Position numbers and translations under genes: made by a program. From the NCBI GenBank assembly GCA_024682455.1, contig JAIKZF010000023.1:1-45131 (forward strand): a stretch of 45,131 nt of DNA, written 5' to 3'. This DNA is from Ruminiclostridium sp. Its GTDB lineage: Bacteria > Bacillota > Clostridia > Oscillospirales > Ruminococcaceae. Below the pieces are notes generated by a model. That model made no database searches. It saw only the letters and a program-made list of their open reading frames with translations, and was not told where the DNA came from. Positions 12,012-12,292 of this stretch are shown here, one piece after another (position 1 is the first letter of the stretch; every line of letters starts with the position of its first letter).

Positions 12012-12050
12012 ATTGCTGCCACCATTCCTTTCGGTAATTCATATAAAGAT

Positions 12051-12079
12051 ATTATATCATCTTTATAAAAAATAGTCAA
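12051..12079 (-). promoter_or_regulatory. Sigma-A-type promoter of purL
   Basis: Minus strand TTGACT-N17-TATAAT. Confidence 0.8.
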
Positions 12080-12095
12080 GAGAAAAACATAATTC

Positions 12096-12259
12096 ATGTG
12101 TCCTCAACAACTGCCGTTTGGCAGTTGTTGTCCCAAATCCTGTTTTACAGCGGACACATTCCTTGATGTCATGCTCATTTCGCCCTTCGGGCGAACAAGC
12201 AACCGCGAATCAGCTTCATAGCGCAGCTTGAAGCTGATTCGCGGTTGATGAGCAGACAT
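12096..12259. mobile_element. Candidate MITE/BIME-like palindromic element (no ORF)
   Basis: Two palindromic modules (12096-12159; 12166-12259) with 8-bp, 11-bp, 12-bp (one bulge), 7-bp and 19-bp stems; ends ATGTGTCCTCAACAAC / revcomp ATGTCTGCTCATCAAC form an imperfect TIR; flanked by the direct repeat TAATTC(AT) at 12090 and 12260. Confidence 0.55.
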
Positions 12260-12265
12260 TAATTC

Positions 12266-12292
12266 ATAACCGCAGGTCTGTCAGCATATCAT
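12266..12292 (+). promoter_or_regulatory. Candidate sigma-E-like promoter upstream of yaaL-bofA
   Basis: ATA-N16-CATATCAT against sigma-E ATA-N16-CATACANT; located 30 bp before ATG 12322. Confidence 0.35.

Follow-up and report, generated by a model that had tools for sequence, protein, structure and literature searches.

A dispersed, gene-less MITE of Ruminiclostridium and its probable mobilization in trans by an IS5-group transposase

We found that an intergenic block of the window (the whole 45,131-nucleotide stretch of Ruminiclostridium sp. DNA analysed here) is one copy of a dispersed, gene-less MITE that inserted with a duplication of TAATTC and is very probably mobilized in trans; the enzyme would be a DDE transposase of the IS5-family group NF033578. 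The element is short and non-coding, has imperfect terminal inverted repeats, is bounded by target-site duplications with matching empty sites, and is dispersed in unrelated contexts. No copy of it encodes a transposase or any other protein, and we therefore classify it as a MITE. The kind is a known one: an IS can mobilize MITEs in trans (PMC10969869), and repeats with a modular, folded build include BOX and RUP (PMC3049150). To an abundant rumen group, the present work adds a MITE family and a transposase that is probably its partner.

Insertion of the window copy

The whole copy, from left end to right end, occupies positions 12096–12259 of the plus strand (164 bp) and belongs to a multi-copy family. 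It is flanked on the same strand by identical copies of TAATTC at 12090–12095 and 12260–12265, and, apart from one copy of this duplication, it is the stretch that is missing from three relatives. The joined flanks of the window copy gave continuous matches in three genomes of the same genus as the window genome (G007, 91%; G039, 81%; G048, 75%), and alignments of the empty sites revealed one target copy each and no element (TAATTC at L240, CAATTC at L242 and TAATTA at L243). Because these relatives lack the element and have a single target copy, the block is an insertion, as the empty sites directly demonstrate. The first-pass annotation had anticipated such sites, lacking the insert and one repeat copy. 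It had also read TAATTC(AT) outside both ends as a target-site duplication; we located the flanking TAATTCAT at 12090 and 12260, and the empty sites support the 6-bp TAATTC as the duplication but show that the AT after the right copy is original flank. A third TAATTCAT at 12035–12042, in the purL leader, is unrelated to the duplication and looks coincidental.

The insertion lies in the intergenic region upstream of purL, a gene named from its sequence as the large single-chain FGAM synthase. The copy sits between purL and the next genes, just 5' of a putative purL promoter. This promoter, assigned from sequence, is on the minus strand at 12051–12079 (−35 TTGACT at 12079–12074, a 17-bp spacer and −10 TATAAT at 12056–12051), and 16 bp separate its −35 box from the MITE upstream. 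At the place where other copies have TATAAT, the window copy has CATAATTC, with no clear −35.

Composite architecture

The complete form of the MITE is ~254 bp long and consists of two three-hairpin 'cloverleaf' domains joined by TCCTTG. Full-length copies read, in order, LE-ATGTGTCC, hairpins 1, 2 and 3, GGACACAT-TCCTTG-ATGTCAAGCTCAT, hairpins 4, 5 and 6, and ATGAGCAGACAT-RE, with each domain bounded by inverted copies of its own end. The complete MITE would be a composite of two palindromic units set 6 bp apart, left-end/inverted-left-end and inverted-right-end/right-end, with three hairpins each.

In the window copy, domain 1 (12096–12159, plus strand) comprises the left-end terminal repeat ATGTGTCCTCAACAAC, hairpin 1 (12105–12130), a remnant of hairpins 2 and 3, and the inverted left end GGACACAT. 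Compared with full-length copies, hairpin 2 has lost half and hairpin 3 most of its sequence, in a deletion between two GTTTTACAG repeats. One copy in G007 and one in G011 have the same breakpoint as the window copy, whether by recurrence or by inheritance, but the G011 one has the G011 subfamily base. The linker TCCTTG follows at 12160–12165 (plus strand) and, where it is retained, is conserved in almost every copy. Domain 2 (12166–12259, plus strand) runs from the inverted right end ATGTCATGCTCAT through hairpin 4 (12179–12195), a scar (about 12196–12199) where hairpin 5 of the full-length copies has been lost, and hairpin 6 (12200–12247) to the right end ATGAGCAGACAT (12248–12259). The palindromic modules described in the first-pass annotation were found in place (ATGTGTCC/GGACACAT at 12096–12103/12152–12159), as were its 11-bp hairpin (12105–12115/12120–12130) and 19-bp hairpin (12200–12218/12229–12247). 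The terminal repeats ATGTGTCCTCAACAAC and ATGTCTGCTCATCAAC match at 15 of 20 positions, in agreement with the imperfect terminal inverted repeat that it had proposed, although the imperfection counts against the reading preferred here. The loop of hairpin 6 is inverted in the window copy only (1 of 62 scorable right ends), as would be expected if the hairpin had formed in DNA and been copied by template switching. The block folds far more tightly than chance would allow, both as RNA (−93.4 kcal/mol, compared with −42.7 ± 3.7 for shuffled sequences; z = −13.8) and as single-stranded DNA (z = −12.4).

Copies of the MITE range in size from 46 to 323 bp, with a mode of 253–254 bp. Tiny derivatives of 46–59 bp retain perfect duplications, and one of them is domain 1 alone (L202, TATTTA). 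Variants of 322–323 bp occur at L115, L161, L200 and L206, and those at L115 and L161 have an extra long hairpin inside hairpin 3. Tandemly inserted MITE copies are separated by a spacer that equals the linker in length (6 bp) and reads TAANNA at L193, L112, L168 and L178. Two tiny MITEs (51 and 53 bp) stand in tandem at L193:2900–3070 (G011:C8), with the same TAAATA between and outside them, and look as if one had inserted into the other's duplication.

Distribution, target polarity and promoters

About 14 separate places in the window's own genome (1.94 Mb, 109 contigs) match the block, as copies or fragments. Among 99 relatives, strong matches were limited to part of the same genus, and an order-wide sample contained the MITE in 1 of 168 genera. 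A conserved 19-base core was found at more than 100 loci, nearly all of them in rumen 'Ruminiclostridium', Ruminococcaceae or Clostridia MAGs; core matches in Desulfobacteraceae, Syntrophaceae and Xenorhabdus look like chance. Viral contigs searched with the core pattern gave no match, and plasmids searched for MITE DNA contained none. Both ends could be located at 66 places, and 59 rows of a scan, including a few redundant, composite or two-copy-spanning ones, paired element-like ends with perfect 6–7-bp duplications. Intergenic copies with the same ends and differing duplications, which the first-pass annotation had named as a check, are thus numerous.

We also observed that the MITE inserts in a single orientation relative to its asymmetric target. 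Among 123 left flanks, 76 read TAANNA and 2 the reversed TNNTTA, with 27 fitting both and 18 reading otherwise; in the simplest symmetric class (TAAATA, TAAGTA or TAACTA), the counts were 44 versus 2. This polarity is unusual, because related ISs use TANNTA in both orientations, and it is a testable oddity of the family. TATAAT occurred within the last 12 bases of 51 of the 123 left flanks, and in 49 (~40%) it lay exactly 2–3 bp from the element. A −35-like box was present above 31 of these 49 promoter-type sites, compared with 281 of 884 other TATAAT sites in the same loci (p = 1.5e-5), which indicates that real promoters are hit. In a gene-context sample scored with a crude ORF caller, the downstream gene was sense in 18 of 21 promoter-type copies. 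Copies away from promoters, scored with the same kind of caller, were divided between 11 sense and 13 antisense, and we rejected for them the idea that orientation is selected by transcription.

As the target overlaps TATAAT, many copies probably lie at a transcript start and would become structured 5' leaders. Neither the −10 box nor the ribosome-binding site downstream would be disrupted by insertion of this kind, and the MITE may represent a naturally occurring small element that inserts where transcription begins, with the promoter and ribosome-binding site unbroken. A tentative explanation, which we consider possible but not probable, is that the DDE transposase complex reads target polarity or an open promoter bubble, and in this way yields ready-made structured 5' leaders across the genome.

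A related reading holds that an IS5-group MITE now serves, by co-option, as a portable 5' leader, kept behind −10 boxes because its transcribed double cloverleaf alters mRNA stability or translation. The proximity of TATAAT, the enrichment of −35 boxes and the sense orientation of genes downstream of promoter-type copies would all suit co-option. However, the TAANNA target preference alone could yield the promoter association, the stems bear no sign of RNA-level selection, and copies away from promoters show no orientation bias to genes; we regard co-option as unlikely. We give a far lower probability to the block being a conserved cis-regulatory RNA, such as a riboswitch or an attenuator acting on purL or on the operon that follows, despite its very stable fold, the covariation-like changes in its stems and the many family members at transcript starts. 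The element is absent from the orthologous locus of three relatives, so that the empty sites refute this reading for the purL locus, and other copies sit upstream of unrelated genes and also downstream of genes. An Rfam search of the window block found no family at the gathering threshold, and twelve sub-threshold matches were judged chance families.

The stems themselves also argue against an RNA. In 35 distinct full-length copies, read on the sense strand, the stems had many double-sided changes, and their mismatches comprised 47 G.U and 48 A.C pairs (12 versus 25 by distinct contexts). G.U pairs should be tolerated in an RNA helix but A.C pairs should not, and selection at the RNA level should favour G.U. 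Because G.U is not in excess over A.C, stem pairing appears to be kept at the level of DNA rather than RNA, contrary to the earlier suggestion of a structured RNA spread by mobility. Selection or hairpin-templated correction, acting on DNA hairpins or cruciforms, may maintain the pairing, and the data fit both. For strand-symmetric hairpins such as those of the MITE, covariation alone must not count as evidence of a functional RNA. The remaining proposal, a REP/BIME-type element whose mobility depends on a TnpA-REP (Y1) transposase, is exceedingly improbable. Although the MITE is palindromic, intergenic, multi-copy and sometimes tandem, it has exact 6–7-bp target duplications at dozens of sites, paired terminal repeats, and ends similar to those of DDE IS elements. 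To our knowledge, Y1 transposition makes neither target duplications nor paired terminal repeats, and the true target duplications contradict this proposal.

Candidate mobilizer and known relatives

Our preferred reading, mobilization of the MITE in trans by an NF033578 transposase, draws on the resemblance of the MITE ends to those of ISs of this group. A transposase of 489 amino acids in G002 (L208) scored 442 bits against NCBIfam NF033578 (IS5 family; cut-off 275), and its IS has the ends GTCTCTCCTCA at TANNTA-type flanks; plasmid pRUMAL02 of R. albus 7 carries a 97% identical IS that has TAATTA on both sides. We found that the IS end GTCTCTCCTCAACAAC matches the MITE left end at 13 of 16 positions; of the ends of related ISs, GTGTCTGCTCAACAAC matches the right end at 14 of 16 and ATGTCTACTGAACAAC both ends at 13 of 16. 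For the best IS ends the match is 12–14 of 16, with an unshifted register relative to the TA-bounded flank, and the chance of a match of at least 13 of 16 is ~1e-5 per end. Some other IS ends of the group match poorly (6–9 of 16), and the nearest complete IS differs from the MITE at 3–4 of 16 end positions. A transposase family with matching ends, which the first-pass annotation had proposed to look for, was found, its ends being similar but not identical to those of the MITE. Together with the dispersed copies, the 6–7-bp duplications and the empty sites, this transposase family upholds its reading of a small non-autonomous transposable element. NF033593 (ISNCY) had been guessed from the 6–7-bp duplications, and the best match proved to be NF033578; IS1182-like matches such as L211 were without matching ends.

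No intact IS with the exact MITE ends (ATGTGTCCTCAACAACTGCC/ATGTCTGCTCATCAACC; ATGTGTCC/ATGTCTGC) was found in the same genomes, and a search of G011, G058 and G000 for an autonomous copy with these ends returned nothing beyond MITEs, tiny derivatives, truncated ends and coding sequence matched by chance. The transposase is intact or near-intact in one MITE carrier (G002), is partial or a relic in G000, G007, G011, G024 and G043, and was not found in other carriers; the genomes are incomplete MAGs. Most genomes with relics of an NF033578-type IS carry the MITE, and recognizable IS remnants are present in half or fewer of the carrier genomes, a fraction drawn from incomplete MAGs. In the window's own genome, partial NF033578-like transposase genes at contig ends (G000:C93:4748–4948 and G000:C68:11015–11110) have GTTTCTCCTCAACAACC ends and are flanked by TAACTA and TAATTA.

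The target duplications of the IS group are TANNTA of 6 bp (some apparently 7), compared with TAANNA of 6–7 bp for the MITE. ISLrh3 copies are flanked by TACTTA, TATTTA, TAGCTA, TAAGTA, TATGTA and TAATTA, the relatives in E. lactis and T. halophilus by TATTTA, and certain cyanobacterial and Alicyclobacillus relatives apparently have 7-bp duplications. We infer that the MITE is mobilized by a member of the NF033578 group, whose DDE transposase, related to those of ISLrh3, ISMae6 and ISAcma17, would act in trans. Because the ISs target TANNTA in either orientation and the MITE targets TAANNA in one, the true mobilizer may be a member that is divergent, lost or absent from the sample.

A search of the open-access literature, subscription journals being outside its scope, yielded no description of the MITE family. 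The kind is known, and the family, with its unusual polarity and promoter association, is apparently undescribed. Prokaryotic MITEs such as Correia, Nezha and QMITE2 (PMC10969869, PMC3049150) are likewise non-autonomous and intergenic, with terminal repeats, target-site duplications and stable folds; compared with such MITEs in general, the present family stands apart in its TAANNA duplications, its composite build of two domains and its fixed orientation to the target. The pneumococcal BOX and RUP repeats (PMC3049150) resemble it in being small and tightly folded, and modular in the case of BOX, with terminal repeats that pair together and target-site duplications. For these repeats, too, mobilization by a resident IS has been proposed and co-transcribed genes are likely affected, but their sequence differs, as do the proposed ISs (IS630-Spn1 for RUP and, with weaker similarity, ISSpn2 for BOX; PMC3049150).

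The NF033578 ISs themselves (ISLrh3, ISMae6, ISAcma17 and the pRUMAL02 IS) share with the MITE the terminal consensus [AG]TGTCTGCTSAACAAC. Unlike the MITE, they are ~1.6 kb long, encode a transposase of ~480 amino acids, insert in mixed orientation to the target and lack the double-cloverleaf interior. MITE hairpin 5 (AAAAGTGCAAGG..CCTTGCACTTTT) is similar to a hairpin that the IS transposase genes have in their leader (AGTGCAAG..CTTGCACTT). Among the NF033578-type IS loci (L208, L225, L231, L252, L254 and L255), several divergent ISs have a GTGCAAG..CTTGCAC-like hairpin between the transposase promoter and the ribosome-binding site, and this hairpin is possibly a regulatory leader.
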